IMG/VR virus record: IMGVR_UViG_3300040781_000154 | Coordinates: 1-46,655 of that record | Source of the DNA: a virus | Length of the DNA stretch: 46,655 nucleotides | Direction: 5' to 3' (one strand) | Shown here: in pieces, positions 8,260 through 20,120 of the stretch | Position numbering within the stretch: the stretch's first letter is position 1 | Layout of the letters: the number at the start of each line of letters is the position of its first letter | Position numbers and translations under genes: made by a program | The notes under the pieces: model-generated | Told to the model about the DNA's origin: nothing | The model's database searches: none | Seen by the model: only the letters and a program-made list of their open reading frames with translations

Positions 8260-8327
8260 GGAGACCATTCCCCGATTCACGAGCCCATACTACTATGACT
8301 TCGTGAGTTAGTACACTACTTTGCGAA
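8260..8327 (-). promoter_or_regulatory. Middle-promoter cassette (copy 7, partly degenerate)
   Basis: Minus strand: GTGTAC (8311-8316), half-site CTCACGAA (8300-8307), 18-bp spacer, -10 TAGTAT (8287-8292), weak GGGG/CTCC leader hairpin (8260-8273). The outer half-site is degenerate (TTCGCAAA, 8320-8327). The box GTGTAC forms the last sense codons and stop of the deaminase gene. Confidence 0.7.
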
Positions 8328-8754
8328 CCCACTCGCGAGCATTTTCGCCACTTGCCAACCATAGCTCTCGCGCGTGGATGTGAGTGTACTCGTCAGCGTA
8401 GACGATCCTCTTGGCTGAGGTGTTCATCAGCAGCTTAACGCAGCCGACGCAAGGCGAGGTCGTGCAGTAGACGGACCAGATCTGGTGGACGTCGCTACAC
8501 TGGAGAAGCGCGTTGGCCTCGGCATGTATTGCCTCGCATAATTCTAGGCCGGTGCCTGAGGGCAAATGGGCGCCCGGACAGGCCCTGTCTATACAGTGCG
8601 TCTGGCCTGCCGCGACGCCGTTGTACCCGGTAGCGAGCACGTGGAGCCGCTCGTTAATCAGGATGCACCCTACTTCCCGCCTCCGGCACGTAGCCCGCGT
8701 AGCAACCTCTCTAGCCAGCCTGAGGAAGTACGTATCGACATCTGGCCTGCTCAT
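8308..8754 (-). CDS. dCMP deaminase
   Basis: 148 residues from the ATG at 8754, which overlaps the stop of a 31-aa membrane-peptide gene (ATGA). Zinc-binding and catalytic residues of the cytidine/deoxycytidylate deaminase fold are present: HAEAN (H77, E79) and SPCVGC (C102, C105). A second Cys/His cluster (QTHCIDRACPGAH, 51-63, and C73) resembles the extra zinc site of T4-type dCMP deaminases. The enzyme turns dCMP into dUMP for thymidylate synthesis. In a phage that seems to replace cytosine it would also help drain unmodified dCMP. It is the last gene of a long overlapping run of genes from 13266 downwards. Confidence 0.93.
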   Translation of the reverse strand: MSRPDVDTYFLRLAREVATRATCRRREVGCILINERLHVLATGYNGVAAGQTHCIDRACPGAHLPSGTGLELCEAIHAEANALLQCSDVHQIWSVYCTTSPCVGCVKLLMNTSAKRIVYADEYTHIHARELWLASGENAREWVRKVVY

Positions 8755-8846
8755 GCCAGCCACCGGAAAAAGACGACCAGAGCCGCCGTGAGGGCTATCG
8801 TGGCGAGTAGTCCTAGCATCGGCTCGCTGTGCTCATTGAGATCCAT
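8751..8846 (-). CDS. 31-aa single-span membrane peptide (overlooked small gene)
   Basis: ATG at 8844-8846 is preceded by GGGAGGACGGACG, a very strong ribosome-binding site. The frame ends in TGA at 8751-8753 and overlaps the dCMP deaminase start as ATGA. The product begins MDLNEHSEPML and continues as one hydrophobic segment, GLLATIALTAALVVFF, ending RWLA. The first codons overlap the end of the lipoprotein gene by 14 bp, so it is translationally coupled on both sides. Function unknown. Being next to a lipoprotein gene it may act with it at the inner membrane, which is an inference from position. Confidence 0.7.
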   Translation of the reverse strand: MDLNEHSEPMLGLLATIALTAALVVFFRWLA

Positions 8847-9123
8847 CGTCCGTCCTCCCTTCGGGGTGATCCTCAGGTCGGTACCTGTTGGCGAGATAGT
8901 AGGCGTGCTGCCCGCACTCCGAGATCACTTCGGCTGAATCGTTGTAGTGCCCGGCGCGGACAGTCTCTTTCGCCAGTTGCATGCACTGGACGAAAAGGCG
9001 CTCCCGGTATGCGCCGTAGCCTCTTTGGCGTGTCGGGTTGGTGTTCTCGCCGCAAGCAGTCAGTAACACGATCAGCAGCACTACGAGAATCGAGATCAAT
9101 GTGGATCGTCTAAACATAGTCAT
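8833..9123 (-). CDS. Small early lipoprotein (96 aa)
   Basis: Begins MTMFRRSTLISILVVLLIVL followed by LTAC-GENTN: positively charged n-region, hydrophobic core and lipobox L-T-A-C, so the mature protein should be lipidated at Cys and facing the periplasm or outer membrane. The mature part (about 70 residues) holds two more Cys (VQCMQLAKE, ISECGQHAYYLANRY) that could form a disulphide. Early-expressed phage lipoproteins often block superinfection or phage receptors (T5 Llp is an example), so that is a reasonable hypothesis, not shown here. The ATG overlaps the previous stop (TGATG). Confidence 0.78.
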   Translation of the reverse strand: MTMFRRSTLISILVVLLIVLLTACGENTNPTRQRGYGAYRERLFVQCMQLAKETVRAGHYNDSAEVISECGQHAYYLANRYRPEDHPEGRTDDGSQ

Positions 9124-9326
9124 CACCTGTCGAACATCTGCGAAAGCACGTGCTTCGCTCCTCTGTCAAACGGCGTGGGATCCATCGGGTCGTTAACGTG
9201 GTCCCAGGCCTCATGAGCGAGTCCTTCTGCCATTTGCTCCTGCGCCCACTCTACGCCTGCCAGCCACTCTTTTTTGTAGTTGCGGTTGCGGTACCAGTGG
9301 ACAAATCCTCGTATGAAATTGATCAT
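9123..9326 (-). CDS. Hypothetical early protein (67 aa)
   Basis: 67 residues starting MINFIRGFVHWYRNRNYKKE, an amphipathic/aromatic N-terminal helix, then WLAGVEWAQEQMAEG and a DHVNDPMDPTPFDRGA stretch. The end (VLSQMFDR) is followed by the lipoprotein start with a TGATG overlap. No family was recognised. It belongs to the tightly packed run of small genes 8308-10174. Confidence 0.7.
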   Translation of the reverse strand: MINFIRGFVHWYRNRNYKKEWLAGVEWAQEQMAEGLAHEAWDHVNDPMDPTPFDRGAKHVLSQMFDR

Positions 9327-9517
9327 AGCGAAATGTCCATGATCGCGTCACGAAGTTCTTCGGTGCGCTCGCCTTTGTTGAACCTGTCGCGACACGGCGT
9401 GATTGCGAAAGCCATAGCGAACAGTCCTGCCGACCCGGTTTCGGCGTAAGCTTTTTCGCAAGCTTCTAAGCGCTCTTCGACTGCTACCCAGTCTATGTTG
9501 TGGATGTCGTTTTTCAT
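9323..9517 (-). CDS. Hypothetical early protein (64 aa)
   Basis: Start ATG 9517 overlaps the stop of the SEC-C gene (ATGA). The product begins MKNDIHNIDWVAVEERLEAC and is predicted all-helical (ACEKAYAETGSAGLFAMAFA, ERTEELRDAIMD). No family was recognised. Overlapping stops and starts on both sides indicate translational coupling inside the operon. Confidence 0.68.
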   Translation of the reverse strand: MKNDIHNIDWVAVEERLEACEKAYAETGSAGLFAMAFAITPCRDRFNKGERTEELRDAIMDISL

Positions 9518-9738
9518 CAGGCATACCCGCTCCAGCAGCATCGTTTGAACTTTTTACCGGACCCACAGACGCAGGGCTTGTTGCGCATGCTGTTCTTGCG
9601 TCGCTTCGCCCCCATCGGCTGCAGTTCTTCGAACTCGCGTTCGCTTAAGGGGAGCAGTCTCCGGCCCTCGCTTTCGGCGCGGCGCGCAGCTGCGGCTAAT
9701 CCTACGCCTTGATGAATCGTTCCTCGTTTTACGTCCAT
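9517..9738 (-). CDS. SEC-C motif protein (73 aa)
   Basis: 73 residues with a basic helical N-terminus (AAAARRAESEGRRLLPLSER) and a C-terminal SEC-C zinc-binding motif, RNKPCVCGSGKKFKRCC. SEC-C motifs bind Zn through CxC...CC, as at the C-terminus of SecA and in many small prokaryotic proteins. Here it makes up almost the whole second half of the protein. The role in the phage is unknown; protein-protein or protein-nucleic acid contact is likely. Part of the early operon. Confidence 0.82.
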   Translation of the reverse strand: MDVKRGTIHQGVGLAAAARRAESEGRRLLPLSEREFEELQPMGAKRRKNSMRNKPCVCGSGKKFKRCCWSGYA

Positions 9739-9747
9739 AGCGATCTC

Positions 9748-9999
9748 CTAGTTAATTTCATGCGCCGGCACGTCCGGCATCCCTTGACTCCAATGCTCAA
9801 GCAAAGCCTTCAGAGCGTCAGCGACCGCCTTGCGCTCGCAGTTCGATATATAGCTGCATCGGCTGTCGTCAGTCGTCTGGAAAACGACTAGCGCGAACCC
9901 AATGTCGTCGCGGCCTGATACTTTTTGCAGATCGCGGCTTATCCGCTTCGCGAGTGTTTGAAGCTGCTTCGACACAGCTCGGTCTGTCTGGTTAGTCAT
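9748..9999 (-). CDS. Conserved-looking small phage protein (83 aa)
   Basis: 83 residues. The middle (DDIGFALVVFQTTDD, then SRCSYISNCERKAVADALKA) resembles a family of small phage and prophage proteins I recall as hypothetical, in which a beta-strand pair GF.LVVF is followed by YISN and a helix. The first 30 residues are helical and basic. No enzymatic residues are obvious. It is located 2 bp from the zinc-ribbon gene in the early operon. Confidence 0.72.
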   Translation of the reverse strand: MTNQTDRAVSKQLQTLAKRISRDLQKVSGRDDIGFALVVFQTTDDSRCSYISNCERKAVADALKALLEHWSQGMPDVPAHEIN

Positions 10000-10000
10000 G

Positions 10001-10174
10001 CTATTTCGCCCTCGGCCAGTAGTCTACCAGAATGTGACCGCACTCTTCGCATTGTTCGGTGCTGACGGTCTCGATGATTCCCATGTGACCGCACTCCGGG
10101 CATTGCTGGTCCTTATGCGTGACGAGGATTCTGCCCGTGTCGATCGTGCCTGTGTCGTTCTGTCGGTACGTCAT
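10001..10174 (-). CDS. Zinc-ribbon protein (57 aa)
   Basis: ATG 10174 overlaps the stop of the hydroxymethylase-like gene (ATGA). The product has two CxxC knuckles, QCPECGHMG and QCEECGHIL, separated by 13 residues, which is a classic zinc ribbon, preceded by MTYRQNDTGTIDTGRILVTH. A longer open frame continues upstream over the hydroxymethylase gene but is only its shadow. Zinc ribbons of this size usually bind nucleic acid or act in transcription complexes. Nothing more specific can be said. Confidence 0.75.
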   Translation of the reverse strand: MTYRQNDTGTIDTGRILVTHKDQQCPECGHMGIIETVSTEQCEECGHILVDYWPRAK

Positions 10175-10968
10175 CCTCTGCGCTCCTGCATCCACGCCGC
10201 GAAAGGGTACTCTTCGTGACAGTAGTTCGTATCGCCTGTAGTAAGAAACGCGAACTCGACCGGATCGCGTGCTCGCGGCATCGGGATTTCGGTGTAGCCG
10301 TCGACGCCGTCTTGGACCAGCATGCTCAACATCTCGAAGTGCCGCTCGTAGACGTGGAACGAATCGACCTTGTGGGTGTAGGTGCCCATCGTCAAATCGG
10401 GATACGCCCTCTTGCGTAGCGCAGCCAGCACCGCCTCTTGGAGAAGTGAGAAACAGAAGACGTCGTTGGTCATGCCGAAGATCGCATCGTTGCTTCGCAT
10501 CGAGACAGACATTTTCAGCGTGCCATTTCGGATCCTGAAGTTGAGACCGTAGGTGCACACCACGTCGGGATTGTCCTCGCGCAAGTGACCGCGGTTGAGC
10601 AGAACCATGCACGCCCGCCGGGAATCGGCATCGCGCATCAGCTCTTCGACGACCCATGCGAACTGACGCTGGCCGAAGATGTATTGCCCGTAGTTGGAGT
10701 TGAATCCCAGGTCCCTGGGATCTTTGATCTTCGCCCACATGGTGGCGTGCTTTTCGATGCTGGTGTCGTAGCGATCACCTCGCAGATACCAGAGGAACTC
10801 TTCGATGCAGTACGCAAGGTTGAGACCGCGAGCACGAAACGAAGTAAGACGCTCGTAGGGTGCCAGCGTGAATTGATAGTCCTCGAGCTCGAGTATCGAC
10901 TGACCTCTGGGTGAGCACGGTCGACCATGTTCAAGCAGATCTTCGTAAACTCTTAAAAAGTTCGACAT
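10171..10968 (-). CDS. Thymidylate-synthase-fold deoxycytidylate hydroxymethylase (predicted)
   Basis: 265 residues with the thymidylate synthase fold: phosphate-binding SRR (116-118), catalytic Cys138 in DVVCTYGLNF, the RSND segment (158-161) and a C-terminal YTHKVDSFHVYERH. A gapless alignment to E. coli ThyA from Cys146 puts Asp169 (in GMTNDVF) where ThyA has Asn177. Asn177 selects dUMP; Asp at this position is the hallmark of enzymes acting on dCMP, as in T4 gp42. I therefore predict 5-hydroxymethyl-dCMP formation with methylene-tetrahydrofolate. It overlaps the kinase gene by 38 bp and lies in one cluster with a MazG-like pyrophosphatase. A strict dUMP hydroxymethylase or methylase is the alternative. 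Confidence 0.85.
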   Translation of the reverse strand: MSNFLRVYEDLLEHGRPCSPRGQSILELEDYQFTLAPYERLTSFRARGLNLAYCIEEFLWYLRGDRYDTSIEKHATMWAKIKDPRDLGFNSNYGQYIFGQRQFAWVVEELMRDADSRRACMVLLNRGHLREDNPDVVCTYGLNFRIRNGTLKMSVSMRSNDAIFGMTNDVFCFSLLQEAVLAALRKRAYPDLTMGTYTHKVDSFHVYERHFEMLSMLVQDGVDGYTEIPMPRARDPVEFAFLTTGDTNYCHEEYPFAAWMQERRG

Positions 10969-11461
10969 TGAGCAAGTCCTCTTCGGAATCCTGGGTGTAA
11001 TCGTACCGCACGACGTTCGCGTTTCGGTACAGCGTAGAATCGAATGTCGCGTCGTAAAGAATGCGTAGTCTCTCCAAGCTGGCTTCGATGTCAGCGACGT
11101 ATTCCGGTGTGTCGTACACCTCGGGCTCGTGCTTGACTTTGTCTAGATCGCCGACGCGACAATAGATGATAAGCGGCGCCACTTCGTCGAGGAGCTTGCG
11201 CTGCGCCTCGTAGTATTCCACATCCGATACGAGTTGCCGGCCGAACACTAGACCGTAGATCGGCTCGCTGATTTGCGTGACGCGATCCTGAATGCAAGGG
11301 AGCTGCGCGCGTTTGAAGCACTCGTCCATGTCGGCACGAACGCCTCCGGGCGTGCCGGCGGATCGACCTATCGCGAAGATCGCCAGCTTAGGGAATATGG
11401 TTGCAAGCCGAATCGACAATGAGCTCTTGCCCATGCCGTCTGGTCCTTCAAGTATGATCAT
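10931..11461 (-). CDS. Deoxynucleoside monophosphate kinase (P-loop)
   Basis: 176 residues from ATG 11461; a longer frame exists but the P-loop protein starts here (MIILEGPDGMGKSS, Walker A GPDGMGKS at residues 6-13). QDRVTQISEP (58-67) matches the DR-containing nucleotide-binding segment of thymidylate-type kinases. The start lies 14 bp inside the pyrophosphatase gene, and the end overlaps the hydroxymethylase-like gene, so all three are translationally coupled. In this context the substrate is probably a modified deoxynucleoside monophosphate such as 5-hydroxymethyl-dCMP, like T4 gp1, but dTMP or dGMP are possible. Confidence 0.87.
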   Translation of the reverse strand: MIILEGPDGMGKSSLSIRLATIFPKLAIFAIGRSAGTPGGVRADMDECFKRAQLPCIQDRVTQISEPIYGLVFGRQLVSDVEYYEAQRKLLDEVAPLIIYCRVGDLDKVKHEPEVYDTPEYVADIEASLERLRILYDATFDSTLYRNANVVRYDYTQDSEEDLLNVELFKSLRRSA

Positions 11462-11825
11462 TGGGTTGCGTCCAGGGAGAGAGGTCCGGGGATTCCCAGC
11501 CCTCAGGTTTACGGAGATCGAGCTCGAACCCACCGCGCTTGCCATTGGGCCCGAGCTCTTTCTTCATGTTGGCAAGGACGACTTCCCGGAACCCATCCAT
11601 CGGCAGGCCTTGGCGTTCAAGCGTACCGATGACAAACACCAGCAGATCCAACAGAGCGTCGTACTCGTCTTCGAGGTCGTCGGCGAGTAGATACTCAGTC
11701 GCCTCTTCGATGAAGCACGCAAAACGGAATCGCTTCTCGTCGAGTTCGAGATTGCGCGGCCCGCCTTCGTACTGGATACCGAAGAGACGATGCTGGTCCT
11801 TGACGAGGTTCAGTAAGTCGTCCAT
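11448..11825 (-). CDS. MazG-like all-alpha NTP pyrophosphohydrolase (candidate dCTPase)
   Basis: 125 residues with the metal-binding pattern of all-alpha NTP pyrophosphatases: FIEEATEYL (E40, E41, E44) and DEYDALLDLL (D56, D60). These enzymes cut NTPs or dNTPs to the monophosphate and pyrophosphate. Located directly before a nucleotide kinase and a dCMP-type hydroxymethylase, it may play the role of T4 gp56, removing dCTP and providing dCMP. The substrate cannot be read from sequence. The C-terminal 35 residues (PNGKRGGFELDLRKPEGWES) form a hydrophilic tail. Confidence 0.82.
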   Translation of the reverse strand: MDDLLNLVKDQHRLFGIQYEGGPRNLELDEKRFRFACFIEEATEYLLADDLEDEYDALLDLLVFVIGTLERQGLPMDGFREVVLANMKKELGPNGKRGGFELDLRKPEGWESPDLSPWTQPNDHT

Positions 11826-11829
11826 GGGG

Positions 11830-12141
11830 TTACGCCGCTTTCTTCTTGGGCGCGACGTAGGCGTTGAGCAGTCCGGCGTCGTACGCGTCGGCGATCATGT
11901 TCTGAGCCGTCGCAGCCGAGTCGGCCACTTTCACGATCGTGGTCAGGAACAGACTGATCTGCCCTTTGCGCACGAACCCCTCGCCTGATGCCAGGGCGAT
12001 TACCTTGGCGGCATGCACGACGTGCTCGTCAGGAGTCGACGGCGCTTTGCCACCGCCCTTGACAGTGAGCTTCGCCGGGATCTTGCCTTCATCTGCAGTC
12101 GCTGCGTCGGCTGCCTTGGGTGCTGCTTTCTTCTTAGCCAT
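11830..12141 (-). CDS. Small Lys/Ala-rich early protein (103 aa)
   Basis: 103 residues with a good ribosome-binding site (AAGGAGATTCTC before the ATG). The N-terminus is a low-complexity basic Ala segment (MAKKKAAPKAADAATADEGK), then a compact helical part (HVVHAAKVIALASGEGFVRK) and a basic end (APKKKAA). The basic ends and position next to a ssDNA-binding protein suggest DNA association. No family was recognised. Confidence 0.72.
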   Translation of the reverse strand: MAKKKAAPKAADAATADEGKIPAKLTVKGGGKAPSTPDEHVVHAAKVIALASGEGFVRKGQISLFLTTIVKVADSAATAQNMIADAYDAGLLNAYVAPKKKAA

Positions 12142-12189
12142 GAGAATCTCCTTGAGTCAGTGGCTTCTTACAATTACCCGGGATGGGTA

Positions 12190-12768
12190 CTACTTACGAC
12201 GGCCCGACGGGCGCGCCTTCTTTCGACCTGCCGACTTGACGTCAGCGAAGTCATCTTCCGCGGCAGGCGCAGTGGCACCTAGAGGCTCGTCGTCTCTTAC
12301 CTTCATGACGTTGTCGAGCGAGAAGGTCACACCTTTGCCGCCTGTCTTGTGCTCCCACGCGTAGGGCCGAATCGAACACCGGTACCACGCGCCGCTGTAC
12401 AGTTCCTCTTGCTGGTCCATCTCATCGATGGCGTCGAGGTCGGCGTCGACGATACCCGGCTTGCGCTTGTTGCCGAGGTTGACGCAGACCATACCGTCGA
12501 ACTCGCCTGCCTCGCTAATGTCCTCGCCATCGCGCAGCGGACTGCGAAGCTTGCGAGGCACTTCACCGAATTTCTCCTCGGCGACCTCGTCTACCCAGTC
12601 TTCGAGCAGTTCGATGTACTCGCCTTGCTCAGGGTCTTCGGGGTCGAGGACCATCAACAGCGAGTACTTAAGGTCGGCATCTTCGGAGATGCGGTCGGGT
12701 TTAGCCAAGTGCACGAAGCTGGCTCGGAACTCCGGCGTGTGCCGGCGTGGATCTTTGGGGTCTGACAT
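12190..12768 (-). CDS. Enc34-type single-stranded DNA-binding protein (DUF2815)
   Basis: 192 residues matching DUF2815/Enc34 ssDNA-binding proteins: EFRASFVHLAKPDRI near the N-terminus, KYSLLMVLDPEDPE, a central acidic region with LRDGEDI, then YSGAWYRCSIRPYAWE and GVTFSLDNVMKVRDDEPLG. The C-terminus is acidic then basic (GRKKARPSGRRK). Family members are OB-fold ssDNA-binding proteins used in phage replication. The ribosome-binding site is AGGAG seven bases before ATG. A hairpin (12787-12816) separates it from the upstream HTH gene. Confidence 0.9.
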   Translation of the reverse strand: MSDPKDPRRHTPEFRASFVHLAKPDRISEDADLKYSLLMVLDPEDPEQGEYIELLEDWVDEVAEEKFGEVPRKLRSPLRDGEDISEAGEFDGMVCVNLGNKRKPGIVDADLDAIDEMDQQEELYSGAWYRCSIRPYAWEHKTGGKGVTFSLDNVMKVRDDEPLGATAPAAEDDFADVKSAGRKKARPSGRRK

Positions 12769-12786
12769 TTGCAGTCTCCTGAACGT

Positions 12787-12816
12787 AAAGAAGGACCCGT
12801 CGTGATGACCGGGCCC
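12787..12816 (-). terminator. Terminator-like hairpin
   Basis: Minus strand GGGCCCG / CGGGTCC (7 bp, one wobble) with a 10-nt loop, followed by TTCTTT. Located 13 bp after the stop codon at 12829. The T-run is short, so it may attenuate rather than end transcription into the SSB gene. Confidence 0.6.
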
Positions 12817-12828
12817 GGGGTTGTGGCC

Positions 12829-13266
12829 TTATGCGCGGCCGGCTTTTTGGACGCTGTAGAGGCGGGTGGCGCCGTCTCGCGTTTGCTTGAGTACCTCGTC
12901 ACTGGCAAGGCCGAACTTCTCACCGCGGTTGCGGATCAAGTAGAGGTCGCCCGTGATGTTCTTGTAGCTGGTGCCGAAGTGCTCGACCAAGAAGTTGACT
13001 GACGCCGGCCGTGATCGGATGATCTCGACAACCTGGGCGGTGCGGCCCGGCGTTTTCTTGGACTTAGGCTTCGCAGCAGGAGCCTCTTCTTCAGCCTGTA
13101 CTTCCTCGGCTTCGGGGGCTTCGTCCGGCAGCTCGGCGATGAGCTTTTCCAGTCGGGCGATGCCTTTGGCTTTGCTGTCAAACTTCTTAATCGACTTGCC
13201 GGTCAGCTCTTGGTAGAGGTCAACGAGGCCAGCCATGGTGAGAAGATTCAGGTCAATTGTTTTCAT
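12829..13266 (-). CDS. Putative DNA-binding protein with helix-turn-helix-like C-terminus (145 aa)
   Basis: 145 residues. An N-terminal helical part (LLTMAGLVDLYQELTGKSIK, KGIARLEKLIAEL) is linked by an acidic, Pro/Ala/Lys-rich stretch (approx. residues 48-72) to a C-terminal winged-HTH-like domain (GRTAQVVEIIRSRPASVNFL, HFGTSYKNITGDLYLIRNRG). The NITGDLYLIR region looks like a recognition helix. Such proteins are common near the SSB gene in related phages and may regulate transcription. As the only clear HTH-like protein of the early arm, it is a candidate reader of the cassette operators. The start follows AAAGGACGAAATC behind two tandem promoter cassettes. Confidence 0.72.
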   Translation of the reverse strand: MKTIDLNLLTMAGLVDLYQELTGKSIKKFDSKAKGIARLEKLIAELPDEAPEAEEVQAEEEAPAAKPKSKKTPGRTAQVVEIIRSRPASVNFLVEHFGTSYKNITGDLYLIRNRGEKFGLASDEVLKQTRDGATRLYSVQKAGRA

Positions 13267-13294
13267 GATTTCGTCCTTTCTTTTTCGGTTAGTG

Positions 13295-13357
13295 GAGGCC
13301 TTCGCCTCACCTGTTTAATTGTACTGCTCATCGTGAGCTTGTACACTTTTTTGTGAT
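13295..13357 (-). promoter_or_regulatory. Middle-promoter cassette (copy 8, proximal of tandem pair)
   Basis: Minus strand: GTGTAC (13341-13346), CTCACGAT half-site (13330-13337), 17-bp spacer, -10 TACAAT (13318-13323), leader hairpin GAGGC-GAAG-GCCTC (13295-13308), whose stem differs from the usual GGGG/CCCC but still pairs. The outer half-site is degenerate. It lies downstream of copy 9, so the 12829 gene has two promoters in series. Confidence 0.7.
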
Positions 13358-13383
13358 TGGGTGGTTGCCCCGATCACATAAAC

Positions 13384-13426
13384 ATTCTACTGCTACTTCG
13401 TGAAAGTGTACACTGTTTTTCGTGAA
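13384..13426 (-). promoter_or_regulatory. Middle-promoter cassette (copy 9, distal of tandem pair)
   Basis: Minus strand: TTCACGAA (13419-13426), GTGTAC (13408-13413), TTCACGAA (13397-13404), 18-bp spacer, TAGAAT (13384-13389). Half-sites are 22 bp apart. No gene and no clear leader hairpin lie between it and copy 8, suggesting loss of an intervening gene or duplication of the promoter. Confidence 0.8.
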
Positions 13427-13432
13427 ATAGTT

Positions 13433-13460
13433 GAAAAAAGTTGAGGGGCCCGGAGGCCCC
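13433..13460 (-). terminator. Intrinsic terminator after the DUF2786 gene
   Basis: Minus strand GGGGCC-TCCG-GGCCCC (13445-13460) followed by TCAACTTTTTTC, 6 bp from the DUF2786 gene stop. Directly followed by promoter cassette copy 9. Confidence 0.85.
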
Positions 13461-13466
13461 GTGGGA

Positions 13467-14189
13467 TCATGCCAGCCGGCGAGTATTCGCTGAGCTGTTG
13501 CCTACGCCTTGGCGGATGCGAACGTTGCTGCCGTCCTGTGTTCCGCGCTGGCGGTGGTGGTTGGCTCGAGCTCGGCGAGTGCTGTTCTGGTACTTGACGT
13601 TGAACTTCTTCGCCACGATGTCACGCTTGACGATCATGAGCTCAGTGCCGGTGGACACCTCGCGCTCGGCCTCTGCCTTCTCGCGGATCATTTCGCGGAT
13701 CACTTGGAGGATGCCGGCCGCCAGCCCGTTGCGGTAGTCGTTGGTGTCGGCCCGCGTCAAGTGAGGGTTGTCGCGCTTGTACTTCGCTGAGAGCAACTCG
13801 ACCTGAGAGCAGATGTAGTCGAAGACGTAGCCGCACACCTCAGGATCGCTGTCGACGCCCAGGAACTCGGCGACCTTCTCGATCGCGTTGGGACCCGTGC
13901 CGTAGCGGCTCGTGTAGCGAACGTGGCAGTCGTGGAGTTCAGCGACCGGGACCAGCAGCATCGTGTACCAAGCCGGGATCCGACCGTAGCCGCGCTCGGC
14001 CTGTTGGGTGGTGGTGTCGTCCTGCGTGACGCCCTCTTTAAGACGTACCGCCGAGCTATCCAAGTTGTACTTCTGCATCAGCTTGCTGGCACGCGTCGCT
14101 GCGATGGCGGCTTCATGCGGGCTCGAGGAGTCTTCGCTCATCGCCAGCAGCTTGCGGATGCGGTCAAGAATCTTTGCTTTGTTTTCCAT
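13467..14189 (-). CDS. DUF2786-containing protein (240 aa)
   Basis: Start ATG 14189 after AAAGGACGAAATC. Residues 4-45 (ILDRIRKLLAMSEDSSSPHE, then AAIAATRASKLMQKYNLD) are the DUF2786 motif, a helical segment seen in phage and plasmid proteins. The middle is helical with HDCHVRYTSRYGTG. The C-terminus is strongly basic (NSTRRARANHHRQRGT, then VRIRQGVG), suggesting nucleic-acid contact. The biochemical role of DUF2786 proteins is not established. It is a single-gene unit with its own cassette and terminator. Confidence 0.85.
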   Translation of the reverse strand: MENKAKILDRIRKLLAMSEDSSSPHEAAIAATRASKLMQKYNLDSSAVRLKEGVTQDDTTTQQAERGYGRIPAWYTMLLVPVAELHDCHVRYTSRYGTGPNAIEKVAEFLGVDSDPEVCGYVFDYICSQVELLSAKYKRDNPHLTRADTNDYRNGLAAGILQVIREMIREKAEAEREVSTGTELMIVKRDIVAKKFNVKYQNSTRRARANHHRQRGTQDGSNVRIRQGVGNSSANTRRLA

Positions 14190-14215
14190 GATTTCGTCCT
14201 TTCTGGTTCCTGCAC

Positions 14216-14285
14216 CGAGGCCCTTCCTCGATTGCATGAACTTATTCTACTGCGATCTCACGAGTTGTACACTGTTTTTCGTGAT
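14216..14285 (-). promoter_or_regulatory. Middle-promoter cassette (copy 10)
   Basis: Minus strand: ATCACGAA (14278-14285), GTGTAC (14267-14272), CTCGTGAG half-site (14257-14264), 17-bp spacer, TAGAAT (14244-14249), leader hairpin CGAGG / CCTCG (14216-14230), a fully changed stem relative to the common GGGG/CCCC. Confidence 0.8.
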
Positions 14286-14286
14286 T

Positions 14287-14772
14287 TTATTTTCCGACCG
14301 CGACGGCGGGCCACTCCATCTCGCCGAGGCCCAACGCGTCCAGCAGCATCTCGGGGTCTCGATGGTAATTGGTGAGAATGTCCCATGTGCCGAAGTGACT
14401 GGTCAGCGCCACGTGCTTGCTCGGGGAGAAGACGAAGCCCATGTACTGCGCCTCTTCACTCGCGCCCCACGTCGGGTCGTGGATCTTATTACAGCGGACG
14501 TCTAGGACCCATGCGTGCTCGACGACGATGGGTACGTCTCTGCCCGCGTAGGCCAGTCCTTCGACGTAGTGGAAGTCGGGAGACCGCATCGCCAGCTCGC
14601 CTGCGTTGACGTAGCACTCTTTCATAGGGCCTCGTTCGACGTCACACTTGACGCCTTTCCACACTCTTCCCTGAGCCGCCAGAATCGCTCTCATTGAGCG
14701 CGAGTAGTCTATGCCTAGCTTTGCCCATTGGTCCAGCTCGTGTTGGACGTGAGCCCTTATGCCTTCTTGCAT
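14287..14772 (-). CDS. Possible transglutaminase-like cysteine protein (161 aa)
   Basis: Start ATG 14772 after GAGGATGACGTC, 16 bp inside the 49-aa gene. The order ECYVNAGELA (Cys), then VVEHAWVLD (His) and HDPTW (Asp) is the Cys-His-Asp order of transglutaminase-like cysteine enzymes, where HAW and DPT are the usual signatures. In between is YVEGLAYAG. The match is by motif only; the catalytic Cys region is less typical, and the family I recall for this pattern in phages is annotated as hypothetical. It could be a peptidase or an inactive relative. It ends directly at cassette copy 10. Confidence 0.72.
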   Translation of the reverse strand: MQEGIRAHVQHELDQWAKLGIDYSRSMRAILAAQGRVWKGVKCDVERGPMKECYVNAGELAMRSPDFHYVEGLAYAGRDVPIVVEHAWVLDVRCNKIHDPTWGASEEAQYMGFVFSPSKHVALTSHFGTWDILTNYHRDPEMLLDALGLGEMEWPAVAVGK

Positions 14773-14906
14773 GACGTCATCCTCACATACTCTTCGACGC
14801 ACCGGTTGACTCGCTCGTTCTGCTCTCGGGCGTAGATCGCCTGAATGGCGCGTCGCTGCTCTTCTCTGCGCTTCTCAAGAAGTCGCTCTCGTTCTAAGTC
14901 TTTCAT
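14757..14906 (-). CDS. Charged helical protein (49 aa)
   Basis: Start ATG 14906, with AAAGGACGAGCACG upstream. The product (MKDLERERLLEKRREEQRRA, then IQAIYAREQNERVNRCVEEY) is one long charged helix, probably coiled coil. It is translationally coupled to the next gene by a 16-bp overlap. An intercistronic UUCG hairpin precedes it. No family was recognised. Confidence 0.65.
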   Translation of the reverse strand: MKDLERERLLEKRREEQRRAIQAIYAREQNERVNRCVEEYVRMTSCKKA

Positions 14907-14931
14907 CGTGCTCGTCCTTTCGGTTGGTGGT

Positions 14932-14945
14932 GGGGCCGAAGCCCC
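14932..14945 (-). promoter_or_regulatory. Intercistronic UUCG hairpin without T-run
   Basis: Minus strand GGGGC-TTCG-GCCCC, 7 bp after the stop codon of the gene at 14953, followed by ACCACC and the next ribosome-binding site. It matches the hairpin at 6141-6156 in position and lack of a T-run. Confidence 0.6.
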
Positions 14946-14952
14946 GGGAGGA

Positions 14953-15183
14953 TTAGTACTCGATGTCGCCGTCGATGATGGTCGCCAGCCAGAGGTCATT
15001 CTCGGTCAGCTCTTTGGCGTGGGCCCGGGCCAGTTCTTCTGTTTCCCAGGAGCTCACCAGTCCCCAGTCAGCGCCCGCCATGATGTGGGCTTGGCTGTTG
15101 ACACAGCTGTAAACTCGAAAGCGCATGACGCGTGAGTGAGGGTTGCTGCGAATGTTCTTCTCAGTAGTGCGAATGCTTTCCAT
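14953..15183 (-). CDS. Hypothetical early protein (76 aa)
   Basis: The second of two close ATGs (15183) has the eight-base spacing to AAAGGA used by other cassette genes. The product (MESIRTTEKNIRSNPHSRVM at the start) has a beta-rich core (RFRVYSCVNSQAHIMAGADW) and a helix SWETEELARAHAKEL. The ends DLWLATIIDGDIEY suggest a small alpha/beta fold. No family was recognised. First gene of cassette copy 11. Confidence 0.72.
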   Translation of the reverse strand: MESIRTTEKNIRSNPHSRVMRFRVYSCVNSQAHIMAGADWGLVSSWETEELARAHAKELTENDLWLATIIDGDIEY

Positions 15184-15209
15184 GATCATCGTCCTTTCTG
15201 GTTTTGCTT

Positions 15210-15276
15210 GGGGCCTTTCCCCGTTGCATGTGATCATTCTACTGCTTTTCACGAAGTTGTACACTAATTTCGCGAA
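15210..15276 (-). promoter_or_regulatory. Middle-promoter cassette (copy 11)
   Basis: Minus strand: TTCGCGAA (15269-15276), GTGTAC (15259-15264), TTCGTGAA (15248-15255), 17-bp spacer, TAGAAT (15236-15241), leader hairpin GGGG/CCCC (15210-15222). The outer half-site abuts the stop codon of the gene at 15277. Confidence 0.83.
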
Positions 15277-15453
15277 TTATTTTTCGTCTTCTTTTCTCCT
15301 GTGTCGGTCAAATCTTTCTAGGCACCTCTCCGCCACATCCTTCGCTTCGTTAAGTCTATCAGACAATTCTGAGCGGAGCTGCCGATTCTCCTGCTCTTGC
15401 TGTCGTTTTTGCTTGAAGCATTTTGCGTGTTCGTCTTCGGCGTAGGTTGTCAT
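15277..15453 (-). CDS. Small coiled-coil protein (58 aa)
   Basis: Start ATG 15453, 10 bp after the DUF2800 gene stop, with GAGGTAGACGAC upstream. The product (MTTYAEDEHAKCFKQKRQQE, then QENRQLRSELSDRLNEAKD) is one long charged helix with heptad-like Leu spacing ending in FDRHRRKEDEK. Function unknown. Last gene of the operon that starts at 22701. Confidence 0.68.
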   Translation of the reverse strand: MTTYAEDEHAKCFKQKRQQEQENRQLRSELSDRLNEAKDVAERCLERFDRHRRKEDEK

Positions 15454-15463
15454 GTCGTCTACC

Positions 15464-16612
15464 TCACTTCTTCGCGGACTCGAAATCTTTCTTTGCGTTG
15501 TCTGCCGTGTCGTAGTCTTGGCGGGTGCTGTTCTCGTCAACGACGATCGGGCCTCCCTCCTGCTTCTTAATCAACTTCTCGAGCTCGACAGGGTCGCGGC
15601 CTTTTTCCTTGAACAGCTTCTCCATCTCGCTCACGCTGCGGGGCTTCTCAACGACCTGCCACGTCTTGGGCACTTTCAGGTCAGCGAACTTCTTGACCAT
15701 CGTCTCCTCGCTAAATTTCCAGAGGCGACGCGTGTTCCCTTTGGCGAGACGTTTGCCTTTCACCTTCTTGCCTTCCAGCAAGCGTCTCTCGACCTCGCCT
15801 TCGACAGCGCTGATGAACGCCTTGAGCTGTGGAACCATTGCTGCTTTTTCGGCCAGTGTTTTCGACGCCATTCGTTTGATCCCCTTGAAGTCGTCAGCCG
15901 CCGCGTTAGTGGCGACCTCTTCTATCTTAGGACATAAGCTTGCGGCTGGGCACCAGCGGCAATTGTCCTCGCTCGGCACGAATCGCACGACACCTTTCTC
16001 GATGTCTTCGATCGTCTTGATGACTTCGCCCTCGAACGCTTTGATCTTTTTCAGCGGCACCTGTTGGAGGGCGAATACATTGTGCGGTGGCTGGCAGATA
16101 CCGACCTCGATCGACCGGATGTCATGGATCACCTCAACGTCGCGGATCACGCCTGCCGCGTATATTGCCAGCTGCGAGTTGTTCACTGGCGAGACTTTCT
16201 GGCCGGCGCCCGTCTTCAGGTCGATGATCTTGATGTCAGCAACCCTGGGATCGCTCAGGTCCGGCGTGATGATGACGACGTCTGCCGTGCCCCAGCAATC
16301 ATCGAGCACTCGAGCCTTGTGCTCCACGAGCAGTTCTGAGTGCGGCTCGACATGCTTGTGCACGAAGTCAATGTAGGGTTTGACGATCTCGTCGATCTGC
16401 TGGCGAGTGATCTTCACGCCGTTAAACGTCTTGCCTGCGGCCGACGCCAGTTTAAGCTTGCCGAGCAACACCTTCTCTCCGACTTCATGGAGAGCGGTAC
16501 CGAGTTCTGATGCGGCCGAAGAGCTGCGGGTGAGACCCGAGACATCGATCTTCATCGACGCCGTGCACGAGAGCCATCGGCTCGAGGCACTTGGAGAATA
16601 AAATGCATGCAT
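15464..16612 (-). CDS. DUF2800 RecB-like PD-(D/E)XK nuclease (382 aa)
   Basis: Start ATG 16612 after AGAGGACTCTCCC; a longer frame upstream is unlikely. The protein begins MHAFYSPSASSRWLSCTAS, the typical DUF2800 opening. The PD-(D/E)XK core is ELLVEHKARVLDDCWGTADV (E97, D111) and ADIKIIDLKTGAG (D131, K133), then NSQLAIYA. A Cys cluster (CRWCPAASLCP, near residue 230) is like the RecB-family Fe-S or zinc cluster. These are exonuclease-type enzymes of phage recombination or replication. It follows the SNF2 helicase after a small hairpin. Confidence 0.9.
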   Translation of the reverse strand: MHAFYSPSASSRWLSCTASMKIDVSGLTRSSSAASELGTALHEVGEKVLLGKLKLASAAGKTFNGVKITRQQIDEIVKPYIDFVHKHVEPHSELLVEHKARVLDDCWGTADVVIITPDLSDPRVADIKIIDLKTGAGQKVSPVNNSQLAIYAAGVIRDVEVIHDIRSIEVGICQPPHNVFALQQVPLKKIKAFEGEVIKTIEDIEKGVVRFVPSEDNCRWCPAASLCPKIEEVATNAAADDFKGIKRMASKTLAEKAAMVPQLKAFISAVEGEVERRLLEGKKVKGKRLAKGNTRRLWKFSEETMVKKFADLKVPKTWQVVEKPRSVSEMEKLFKEKGRDPVELEKLIKKQEGGPIVVDENSTRQDYDTADNAKKDFESAKK

Positions 16613-16626
16613 GGGAGAGTCCTCTA

Positions 16627-16656
16627 AAAGTGTGCGCCCCGGAATCCCAGGGCGCG
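16627..16656 (-). terminator. Hairpin with short T-run between helicase and nuclease genes
   Basis: Minus strand GCGCCC...GGGCGC (16635-16656) with extra inner GG/CC pairs, followed by ACACTTTT. There is no promoter for the nuclease gene downstream, so it is more likely an attenuator or stability element than a full stop. Confidence 0.55.
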
Positions 16657-16662
16657 ACAGGG

Positions 16663-18495
16663 TTATGCGGCTTCGGCGATTGCCTCGTCGCACATTTCCA
16701 TGAACTCTTCGTACATGTCCTCCTCGAGTTCAGACACCTTGGCGACGTCAAACTCGCCCAGGATTTCGTTGAGCTCTTCGCGGCTGGTCGCCTTCAGAGT
16801 TTCACTGGCTTTCGCTCGTACTTTATCGAACGGCTTCTCTTCGTCGTCGGCTGAGACTTTGCGACGTGTGCGGCGAGTCGGCTTGGCCTCTTCTTCCTCT
16901 TCATCGTCTTCGGCTTTCTTGGCGGCTCGTCGACGTCGGGTTGGTTTCGGCTCATCCTCTTCCTCCTCGTCTTTCTTGGCACTACGGCGAGTGCGACGCT
17001 TGGGCTTTTCTTCCTCCTCGTCTTCGTCTTTCTTCGCGCTGCGGCGAGTACGGCGCTTCGGCGTTTCCTCTTCTTCCTCTTCGCCTTCGCCGTCGAACGG
17101 AATCTCCGCGTCTACCTCGGGCTCTTTCTTGGCTCGACGTGAGCGACGGGGTTTAGGCTTTTCTTCGGCCTCCTCTGTGGCGTCGTCCAGAAGTGTATCA
17201 ATCTCATCGGCCGCGTTACGCAGCATGAGGCTCAGTCGTGTGACAAGTTCGTTTATTTCCATAGTAGGCAACTCGCTCTCTTGTAAAAGTTGGGATGTAA
17301 CACTTTGCTTCTCTAACGCCCGCTTCACCTGATACTCGTCAATCGATCCTCGGATCGTTACGATGTCAGCCTCCACGGTTCCTGTCTGCCCAATCCGATG
17401 AGCGCGATCGGTTGCTTGGTCAATATCACCCGGCACCCAACTGCTCTCGGCGAGCAAAACTCTTTGTGCTGCGGTCAGTGTCAACCCGACACCTCCCGCG
17501 CTAATTCCTATGACGATAAGTCGGCACTCGTCCTGATTCTGAAATATCCTCTCAGCCTCCTTCTTCTTGGCGTTGGAGACGCCTCCCATAATACCGACTA
17601 CACCTAGGGATGAATACTTTTCGAGAAGCGGCTCGAGCATTTCTGCTCGGTGGTGGCCGAACACGATCAGCTTGTCGTCTCTCGTTGCGAAGTGGTGATC
17701 GATGATCTCGCATACGGCGGGGAACTTCACCATGGCGTGCAGTCGCATCACAGTGGACAACGCCTCGAACGCCACATCAGGCGCGACGTTCTTGAACTCC
17801 TCGAGGTCGTACTCTTTCTCTTCCGGCGGCAACTCCAGATCCAGCGAGAGGACGCGGTAGTGCTTGGGCGGCAATTGCTTGAGCACATTCTTCTTGGTGA
17901 AGCGGATCATATGCGGCGCGATGATGTCTCGCAACTGATCGAGGTTTGAGGCGCCGTTGACATCGAGCCCGTAGCTGGTTTTTCTGGCGGCACAGAACCT
18001 GTGAACGAAACTGTAGTAGCCGCGGTCGTACGCGCCAATGGCATCGAGAATCGGATAGATCTCAACCGGGCGTGACGGGATCGGCGTGCCTGACAGCAGC
18101 ATCACTTTCTGGATGCACTCGATTTCAGCGATGACCGCCTTCGTGCGCTTGGCGTCGAGGTTCTTCGCGTAGTGGAACTCGTCGACAATGAACGTCTGCG
18201 CCTGAGCGACGTCGAGATCCAGATTGATCAAGAAGTGATAGCTCATAATGAAGACGTCAGCCGCTAAGAACAAATCGGCTTGATCTTTAACGATGACCGG
18301 CTTGAGCCCACACTCGACAGCTTCGTCGAACCAGTTGTACTGCAAGAAAGCCGGGCAGACAATCGTGGCTGGTGGATCCAGTGCACGCATCGCGACCATT
18401 GTCTTACCCAACCCCTGCTCAAGGCAGAGGAGGGTAACGTCACGCTTCCGAGCTTGGTCTATCGCGTACTGCTGGAAGCGGTACGGCTTTTTCAT
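16663..18495 (-). CDS. SNF2-type helicase with repetitive acidic/basic tail (610 aa)
   Basis: Helicase core: Walker A EQGLGKT (K31), motif II VDEFH (104-108, DEAH-like), LSGTPI (134-139), and motif VI QATDRAHRIGQ in the second lobe, typical of SNF2 enzymes. From about residue 445 to 555 the chain is low complexity: blocks like KRRTRRSAKKDE alternate with EEEE runs, about five times. It ends with a small helical module (ASETLKATSREELNEILGEF, then DVAKVSELEEDMYEEFMEM). Such end modules occur on phage nucleic-acid-binding proteins. The start overlaps the carbamoyltransferase stop (ATGA). It probably acts on DNA in replication or recombination. Confidence 0.93.
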   Translation of the reverse strand: MKKPYRFQQYAIDQARKRDVTLLCLEQGLGKTMVAMRALDPPATIVCPAFLQYNWFDEAVECGLKPVIVKDQADLFLAADVFIMSYHFLINLDLDVAQAQTFIVDEFHYAKNLDAKRTKAVIAEIECIQKVMLLSGTPIPSRPVEIYPILDAIGAYDRGYYSFVHRFCAARKTSYGLDVNGASNLDQLRDIIAPHMIRFTKKNVLKQLPPKHYRVLSLDLELPPEEKEYDLEEFKNVAPDVAFEALSTVMRLHAMVKFPAVCEIIDHHFATRDDKLIVFGHHRAEMLEPLLEKYSSLGVVGIMGGVSNAKKKEAERIFQNQDECRLIVIGISAGGVGLTLTAAQRVLLAESSWVPGDIDQATDRAHRIGQTGTVEADIVTIRGSIDEYQVKRALEKQSVTSQLLQESELPTMEINELVTRLSLMLRNAADEIDTLLDDATEEAEEKPKPRRSRRAKKEPEVDAEIPFDGEGEEEEEETPKRRTRRSAKKDEDEEEEKPKRRTRRSAKKDEEEEDEPKPTRRRRAAKKAEDDEEEEEAKPTRRTRRKVSADDEEKPFDKVRAKASETLKATSREELNEILGEFDVAKVSELEEDMYEEFMEMCDEAIAEAA

Positions 18496-20120
18496 ACAAA
18501 GCAGTAAGTCGAGAAGGCCGGCTGCTTAAGCGTATGACGCGTCAGCCATGTCGCGTGCACTCGTCGTAGTCCCGCAATGTCGAAGATGATCGGATCACCG
18601 TGAAGGTTCAAGCTGGTGTTGATCAAGCACTCGTAGTTGACCATCTCCAGAAGAGCCACCATCGTCGCGTCTGTCATGACGTCGACAATCTGCGGTCGCC
18701 CGGTATAAGCCTCGCCATCCTTGAGCGCAGCGCCTGAGACTTCCTCGCCTTTCCCATGCTGAAACTCATGAGCGCAGACCATGAATCTGTCGGTGCCGAT
18801 GACGCTTGTCAGTATCTTCTTGTCGAAGAGCCTGCGCGATGCGCCGTGTGTCATCACAGGAGCCATCGGCATGACCGTGTTGCGGTCGTTAAGGTCATTG
18901 ATCGCCTCGACGTGCTTCATCGTGGGAGGCGCGAGAGTAGTCGTCTTGCATAGCGCCCTGGGCCCGAACTCCATCTCGCCTCGCATGATGTTAACGATCT
19001 CACCTCTGTTCAGCTTGTCCGCGATTTCCTTGATGACGTAAGGGAACTCTTTCTGCTTGAAGACTTGGAAGTTCGTCATGCCTAGCTGGTCCATCGGTGT
19101 GATCGTGTCAGGCCTTGTGCCCCAGCACAGATCGCCGAAGCGGAAACGGCCTTTGCCGGCGTACTCACGATACGCTCCGATCGCTGCGCCTTGGTCACCA
19201 GCCAGAGGCATGACGCTGAAGCGGTCCATGTACTTGGCGATGCGGCCGTTTAGGCGGACATTGTAGAAGCAGCCACCGGCGACCATGAGGTTCGTGATCT
19301 TGTGCTTGGAAATGATGTCGAACACGTACTTCTCGAGGACAAACTGGAGGAACCAGCCCATCTCCTCACGCGTAAACTTCATCTTACGAAACGCGTTGAT
19401 GAAACGCTTCTGCTTCACCTCCATGAGCCGCTCGAGGTTGATGGGATACTTCATCTCAACGTTCTCGATGTTCTCGTACTCATAGTCCTTCATGAACGAC
19501 TCGGCGCAGATCCGGACGTAGTCAAGGCGGTCCTTGTCGACCCGCGCTCGATAGCCGAGGTACTTGTAGACGTCGTTGATGCCGTCCATACCCTGGGACT
19601 CGGCAGCATACTGGAACATCAGGCCCATCGAGTGTTCGTATCCCTGCTGGCGCTCTATGAGCTCAGGGACGTTGTCCTCGTTGATGCGGTAGAGGCTCAT
19701 GACTTCTTCGTTGGTGCCGAAGCCGTCGATGACGAGTGTGTGCCATCGGGTATCGACCGCCATGAACTCCTCGGTGAATGCCAGTGCGCTCCACGCGTGC
19801 ATGTCGTGATGGGTCAGGCCGTTGGCTTCGGCATAGACCGCGTTAGGGCACAGCTGGCGGAACAGGCCGTAGTTCCAATACTTGCTCTCGTGATTCATGT
19901 CAAAGCCGTTGAACCACGAACTGACGAAGAAGGTCTTGACTTGGCTCAGATCGATGTGCTTACCAATCTCGATGATTGCCTTATGGGGGAATGACGAATC
20001 GCTCTTGATGCGAGTCAGTCGCTCCTCCTCATATCCGATGGGCTCACCCGATCTGGTCTCCACTGCGATGGCGCTCGCGTTGTGGCCCAGGGTTAGCAGC
20101 ATTGCGTATTCTTTTTTCAT
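18492..20120 (-). CDS. NodU/TobZ-type carbamoyltransferase (predicted DNA-base modifying enzyme)
   Basis: 542 residues from ATG 20120, six bases after AGAGGA. N-terminal Kae1-like domain: LTLGHNASAIAV (8-19), YEEERLTRIKSDSSFP, the metal-binding THHDMHA (103-109) and DGFGTNEE (132-139). Then AGGCFYNVRLNG and PLAGDQGAAIGA. C-terminal YrdC-like domain with GEMEFGPRAL (381-390) and NTSLNLHGDP (501-510). Family members move a carbamoyl group from carbamoyl phosphate to a hydroxyl group. In this phage the likely target is 5-hydroxymethylcytosine in DNA or as nucleotide. The segment after GPRAL is CKTTTLAPP, unlike the usual GNRSILADPR. It sits inside the replication operon, overlapping the SNF2 gene. 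Confidence 0.92.
   Translation of the reverse strand: MKKEYAMLLTLGHNASAIAVETRSGEPIGYEEERLTRIKSDSSFPHKAIIEIGKHIDLSQVKTFFVSSWFNGFDMNHESKYWNYGLFRQLCPNAVYAEANGLTHHDMHAWSALAFTEEFMAVDTRWHTLVIDGFGTNEEVMSLYRINEDNVPELIERQQGYEHSMGLMFQYAAESQGMDGINDVYKYLGYRARVDKDRLDYVRICAESFMKDYEYENIENVEMKYPINLERLMEVKQKRFINAFRKMKFTREEMGWFLQFVLEKYVFDIISKHKITNLMVAGGCFYNVRLNGRIAKYMDRFSVMPLAGDQGAAIGAYREYAGKGRFRFGDLCWGTRPDTITPMDQLGMTNFQVFKQKEFPYVIKEIADKLNRGEIVNIMRGEMEFGPRALCKTTTLAPPTMKHVEAINDLNDRNTVMPMAPVMTHGASRRLFDKKILTSVIGTDRFMVCAHEFQHGKGEEVSGAALKDGEAYTGRPQIVDVMTDATMVALLEMVNYECLINTSLNLHGDPIIFDIAGLRRVHATWLTRHTLKQPAFSTYCFV

Follow-up and report, generated by a model that had tools for sequence, protein, structure and literature searches.

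The closest described system to the locus analyzed here was reported by Yang et al. (eLife 2021; PMC8670742), who expressed one carbamoyltransferase (CT) from an environmental sewage phage and observed the in vitro conversion of 5-hydroxymethylcytosine (5hmC) into 5-carbamoyloxymethylcytosine. That enzyme accepts 5hmC in single-stranded DNA and 5hmdCTP, as well as RNA at low yield; its activity is several-fold lower on double-stranded DNA, and 5mdCTP and 5hmdUTP are not used (PMC8670742). In the literature searched, 5-carbamoyloxymethylcytosine appears only as the in vitro product of this sewage-contig enzyme, with no report of it from real phage DNA. Further points of comparison are provided by phage T4, in which the cap is glucose instead of the carbamoyl group predicted here; by MilA, the CMP hydroxymethylase of mildiomycin biosynthesis, whose product is a hydroxymethylated cytosine nucleotide; and by the TobZ, NodU and cyanophage Nol proteins, of which TobZ and NodU act on sugars. 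Both the chemistry and the CT association are already published, and the locus described here is another case. Our own additions are the occurrence of the complete module in cultured phages of Xanthomonas and Acinetobacter, a negative control and a set of clade-diagnostic residues.

The window, by which we mean the whole stretch of DNA analyzed, is a 46,655-base virus record whose right part encodes a terminase, a portal, a head maturation protease, a major head protein, tail proteins and a tape-measure protein, and whose left part carries replication and nucleotide-metabolism genes on the minus strand. No close DNA relatives were found in the phage collection searched. We consider it very probable (roughly 85%), judging from sequence, that this phage carries a pathway to 5hmC and then to a carbamoyl-capped cytosine, 5-carbamoyloxymethylcytosine, in its DNA. 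A first-pass annotation had predicted this modified base from five genes, all of which correspond to minus-strand open reading frames with the left ends it gave (8308, 10171, 10931, 11448 and 18492), and its prediction was borne out at every step open to testing by sequence. The MazG, kinase and thymidylate synthase (TS)-fold genes overlap one another's ends, in the manner of a co-translated trio, and a gap of about 6.7 kb, occupied by replication genes, lies between this trio and the CT gene. Between the CT gene and the rest of the pathway there is also a SNF2-type helicase gene (16663-18495, minus strand), in whose product acidic and basic repeats (RRTRRSAKKDEEEE-like) alternate over a long C-terminal stretch. 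The family A DNA polymerase gene (2871-4919, minus strand; PF00476, E 9e-16; phrog_17, E 1.6e-84) is regarded here as context and not as a pathway enzyme.

The predicted 5hmC O-carbamoyltransferase is encoded at 18492-20120 on the minus strand, within an open reading frame that extends to 20153. The start at 20120, which agrees with the end coordinate of the first-pass annotation, is preceded by an AAGAGGA ribosome-binding site, while the ATG at 20153 lacks one; residues are numbered here from the latter. The protein comprises an N-terminal Kae1-like domain (PF02543, E 3.4e-15) and a C-terminal YrdC-like domain (PF16861, E 2.1e-23), as does the tested sewage-phage enzyme, and it matches phrog_1601 (E 3.3e-59). 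Its metal ligands are H115, H119, D143 and D320, accompanied by a conserved His24; the four ligands are invariant in the alignment and, together with Arg418, are shared with TobZ, NodU and Nol. The protein, initially described as a NodU/TobZ-type carbamoyltransferase, belongs to their superfamily but to a separate clade. In a maximum-likelihood tree, the window CT and the tested enzyme fall within one 67-member clade (support 100/100) with a long stem of 1.54 changes per column, and TobZ, Nol from P-SSM2 and two further sequences (L069 and L070) lie outside it. With a single-sequence query, no close protein relatives of the window CT were found in viral contigs, and an alignment query was needed.

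The TobZ numbering used here was fixed by its metal ligands, which we take to be H114, H118, D137 and D338, and W408, R418, G421 and R423 then also coincide with the residues so named. Positions 408, 421 and 423 were singled out by the authors of the eLife study (PMC8670742); they are Ile, Cys and Thr in the window CT, as in the tested enzyme, and Trp, Gly and Arg in TobZ. Thr in place of TobZ Arg423 and Asn in place of Lys443 occur in 67/67 members of the clade, the active tested enzyme included, and this pair (around residues 399-424 of the window CT) constitutes a simple diagnostic of the clade. Clade membership and residues support the assignment of the 18492 protein as a putative 5hmC O-carbamoyltransferase. 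The two enzymes are 37-38% identical in a pairwise comparison with the sequence printed in PMC8670742, which is the virome association study to which the first-pass annotation had correctly referred. Beyond this distance (37% identity), the window differs from the tested system in its overlapping MazG-kinase-TS trio set apart from the CT by replication genes, but it shares with it the TS, PRA-PH and dCMP deaminase partners.

The TS-fold gene at 10171-10968 (minus strand; PF00303, E 5.2e-18) encodes a predicted dCMP hydroxymethylase. Its key residues are the nucleophile Cys138, Glu57, Ser91-Asn92-Tyr93, Asp135, Thr139 and Asp169, the last of which aligns with ThyA Asn177, as had been proposed at the outset, and with Asp179 of T4 gp42. 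The published signature of hydroxymethylation combines a Ser-x-Tyr motif with an Asp located three positions ahead of the catalytic Cys (PMC6400193); the window enzyme has both, as Ser91-x-Tyr93 (T4 Ser94-x-Tyr96) and Asp135-V-V-Cys138 (T4 Asp145). The C-terminal tail of ThyA is absent, the protein ending in AAWMQERRG and not in a PVAI-like sequence. The same TS fold, nucleophile (Cys148 in T4), signature residues and missing tail characterize T4 gp42, but the two proteins are only 24% identical and belong to different TS-fold lineages, the window enzyme being structurally nearer to MilA. Indeed, MilA is the nearest solved structure both by sequence (E 1e-21, followed by T4 gp42 at E 3e-13, both above true thymidylate synthases among PDB matches) and by fold, the AlphaFold2 model (pLDDT 96) being nearest to MilA and also matching other TS-fold entries. 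MilA favours CMP, a preference attributed to Ala176 and Lys133 (PMC5175136), whereas the window enzyme carries Ser159 and Arg118, the type found in deoxynucleotide-specific enzymes. Taken together, Asp169, the Asp135/Ser91/Tyr93 signature, Ser159/Arg118 and the missing tail predict an enzyme that would convert dCMP to 5hm-dCMP, as opposed to dUMP to dTMP or dCMP to 5-methyl-dCMP. The initial annotation had likewise foreseen a hydroxymethylase acting on dCMP, and the signs of this that can be read from the protein agree.

The remaining three genes encode a pyrophosphatase, a kinase and a deaminase. The MazG/PRA-PH all-alpha nucleotide pyrophosphatase (11448-11825, minus strand; PF01503, E 4.9e-6) has DR2231-like pyrophosphatases and 3nl9 as its relatives in the PDB, and its conserved metal-binding acids (E40, E41, E44, D56 and D60) are invariant in a 23-sequence alignment. 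The P-loop nucleotide kinase occupies 10931-11461 of the listed open reading frame 10931-11545 (minus strand; phrog_761 'thymidylate kinase', E 2.4e-11), its start being placed, from sequence and relatives, at an internal ATG at 11461 (MIILEGPDGMGKSS). The model of this kinase (pLDDT 94) is nearest to YorR, thymidylate kinases and deoxynucleoside kinases, a fold that suits a nucleotide kinase role. The dCMP deaminase (8308-8763, minus strand; PF00383, E 4.9e-19; phrog_174, E 2.8e-36) displays the zinc motifs HAE and PCxxC in its translation. The first-pass annotation had stated that these genes and the TS-fold gene mirror T4 gp56, gp1, gp42 and cd. As pathway logic this holds; as ancestry it does not for MazG and the kinase, hhalign giving a probability of 6.1% over 36 columns for MazG against the dCTPase gp56, and of 5.5%, confined to the P-loop region, for the kinase against the dNMP kinase gp1. 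The roles expected in the pathway are alike, but the similarity amounts to the P-loop or to a short weak match, and the two window proteins are probably functional analogues, not detectable homologues, of gp56 and gp1. Since specificity is unreadable from sequence in both cases, we infer their substrates: the MazG-like enzyme would hydrolyse dCTP to dCMP, and the kinase would phosphorylate hydroxymethyl-dCMP.

The genomic context of the CT clade provides a further line of evidence. Searching with CT peptides only, by means of a query seeded from TS-bearing phages, we found 59 viral loci; in 54 of them a TS homologue carrying Asp at the ThyA 177 position lies near the CT, Asn177 being found in none (0/59). 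The five remaining loci are short or edge-cut stretches, with the exception of L049. Asp is present at both 143 and 177 in all 73 CT-linked TS homologues. A kinase occurs in 34/59 loci, a deaminase in 35/59 and a MazG gene in 26/59, and the order CT-MazG-kinase-TS-deaminase is seen in 25/59, so that the five genes originally singled out as a set are kept together in relatives. A control set of 80 loci with Nol-type CT, searched with the same profiles, yielded no TS, kinase or deaminase genes and a single MazG gene. Among loci of at least 13 kb, a TS gene is found in 50/51, against 0/41 in the control. The linkage of TS and CT (54/59 versus 0/80) is not due to chance. The corresponding Fisher value (1.8e-25) overstates the evidence and is only indicative, because the loci are phylogenetically non-independent and phages with a TS gene served as seeds for the CT query; more weight attaches to the absence of TS from the control. 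In a quick TS-fold tree, T4 gp42 lies among the partners of the CT clade (with those of L019, L034 and L066), a placement suggesting that more than one hydroxymethylase lineage has been a partner of the CT.

The CT clade extends to cultured phages: Xp15 of Xanthomonas, three Acinetobacter phages (Effie, HHU4 and MD-2021a), and phages of Bacteroides fragilis, with six records. Xp15, Effie, HHU4 and MD-2021a all preserve the gene order CT, MazG, kinase, TS, deaminase. The four Bacteroides fragilis records looked at directly, of the six, contain a CT and two hydroxymethylase homologues; in BF503P1 there is no profile match for MazG, kinase or deaminase, and the gene beside the CT encodes a P-loop AAA_28 protein. 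Most module genes in the cultured phages are annotated as hypothetical. The Acinetobacter phages also possess an ordinary ThyA with Asn177 and His147 (L003:2318, L004:1947 and L006:2368, plus strand), and Xp15 has a gene annotated as a thymidylate synthase complementing protein (L002:3202, plus strand); neither type turned up in those window proteins that were scanned. The literature searched, which included few subscription papers, gave no measurements of modified DNA for Xp15 or for the Acinetobacter phages and no follow-up on 5-carbamoyloxymethylcytosine.

Several loci also harbor unusual TS-fold genes. A paralogue adjoining the CT on the plus strand (L005:16504-17310, L017:12413, L019:12460, L020:12395, L022:6139, L024:11599, L026:12416 and L031:12461) keeps Cys146, Asp143 and Asp177, with the catalytic Glu58 replaced by Met, Ile or Leu, Trp80 by Tyr and, often, Asn at 169; a canonical hydroxymethylase is located further along in most of these loci, and the paralogue may be an inactive partner subunit or have a different activity. 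In a second group (L023:9213, L028:9210, L030:9174, L057:7806 and L063:9024, plus strand), the sole TS near the CT precedes it and has Gln for Glu58 and Glu for Asp169, pointing either to altered chemistry or to substitution by another residue. In L018:11760, L027:11841 and L042:12571 (plus strand), the canonical hydroxymethylase has beside it a second TS-fold gene that is highly divergent: Glu58 is replaced by Lys and, in two of the three, Thr147 by Leu. Finally, the same CT and TS pair is found on contigs assigned to MAGs of Patescibacteria, Acidimicrobiia and Epsilonproteobacteria (L066, L067 and L068), which may be phage contigs inside MAG bins.

In the pathway that we propose, the MazG-like enzyme would empty the dCTP pool into dCMP, and the TS-fold enzyme would add a hydroxymethyl group from methylene-tetrahydrofolate at C5 of dCMP, with Asp169 selecting cytosine, and with Asp135 and Ser91/Tyr93 positioning the attacking water and blocking the hydride transfer that would make a methyl group. 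The phage kinase and then the host NDP kinase would yield hydroxymethyl-dCTP. The CT would use host carbamoyl phosphate together with ATP to form carbamoyl-AMP, and would carbamoylate the 5-hydroxymethyl group at one of two stages, in hydroxymethyl-dCTP prior to replication or in single-stranded DNA at the fork, while the dCMP deaminase would divert dCMP to dUMP for dTMP. The family A DNA polymerase would have to use the modified dCTP, and the product would presumably resist host restriction enzymes that read cytosine. The hydroxymethylation and carbamoyl-transfer steps of this predicted scheme are supported at the residue and clade levels; dCTP removal, kinase and deaminase steps are proposed from family and gene neighbourhood. 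Points that weigh against the scheme are the modest identity of the CT to the tested enzyme (37%), the distance of the CT gene from the MazG-kinase-TS trio, and the lack of homology of MazG and the kinase to gp56 and gp1.

The generic nature of the Pfam and NCBIfam models, and an NCBIfam match of the window CT to NodU, would fit a CT that decorates a sugar, a tail protein or a host surface molecule, after the fashion of NodU and the antibiotic carbamoyltransferases, leaving phage DNA with bare 5hmC. This appears very unlikely, for the clade excludes TobZ and Nol, the residues at 408, 421 and 423 are those of the validated enzyme, and the Asp177 TS genes that accompany this CT in nearly all loci are absent from every Nol-type one. 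It is also conceivable that the TS-fold enzyme is a dCMP methylase like that of Xanthomonas phage XP12, with the CT acting on something unrelated, given that Asp at ThyA 177 alone confers dCMP preference and hence suits a methylase too (PMC8670742). The presence of Asp135 and Ser91-x-Tyr93, the lack of the ThyA tail and the universal Asp143/Asp177 pairing in CT-linked homologues argue against a methylase, in a comparison that uses published residues; the tested member of the CT clade is, moreover, inactive on 5-methyl-dCTP (PMC8670742), and we deem this alternative extremely improbable.

Small genes without assigned function between 8833 and 10000 could, on the other hand, point to a 5hmC-derived cytosine modification other, or further, than carbamoyloxymethyl. 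Neither a glycosyltransferase nor any other recognised base-modifying enzyme turned up in the window proteins that were scanned, and we see in this option the faintest of prospects. Carbamoylation of 5hmC is the reading that we favor. An extended form of it, which we advance tentatively and at somewhat short of even odds, is that carbamoylation takes place on hydroxymethyl-dCTP, ahead of replication, whereupon a family A polymerase would put 5-carbamoyloxymethylcytosine in place of nearly all cytosines, and that the CT is a portable cap that has been combined with several separate lineages of dCMP hydroxymethylase, including a T4 gp42-like one, as a widespread alternative to T4 glucosylation.

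The window thus represents a 46.7 kb phage record containing the whole predicted pathway, the enzymes of which are possible tools to protect or mark 5hmC. Moreover, several cultured phages share these genes, and the existence of the modification, its extent, its timing and its effect on restriction are consequently directly testable.
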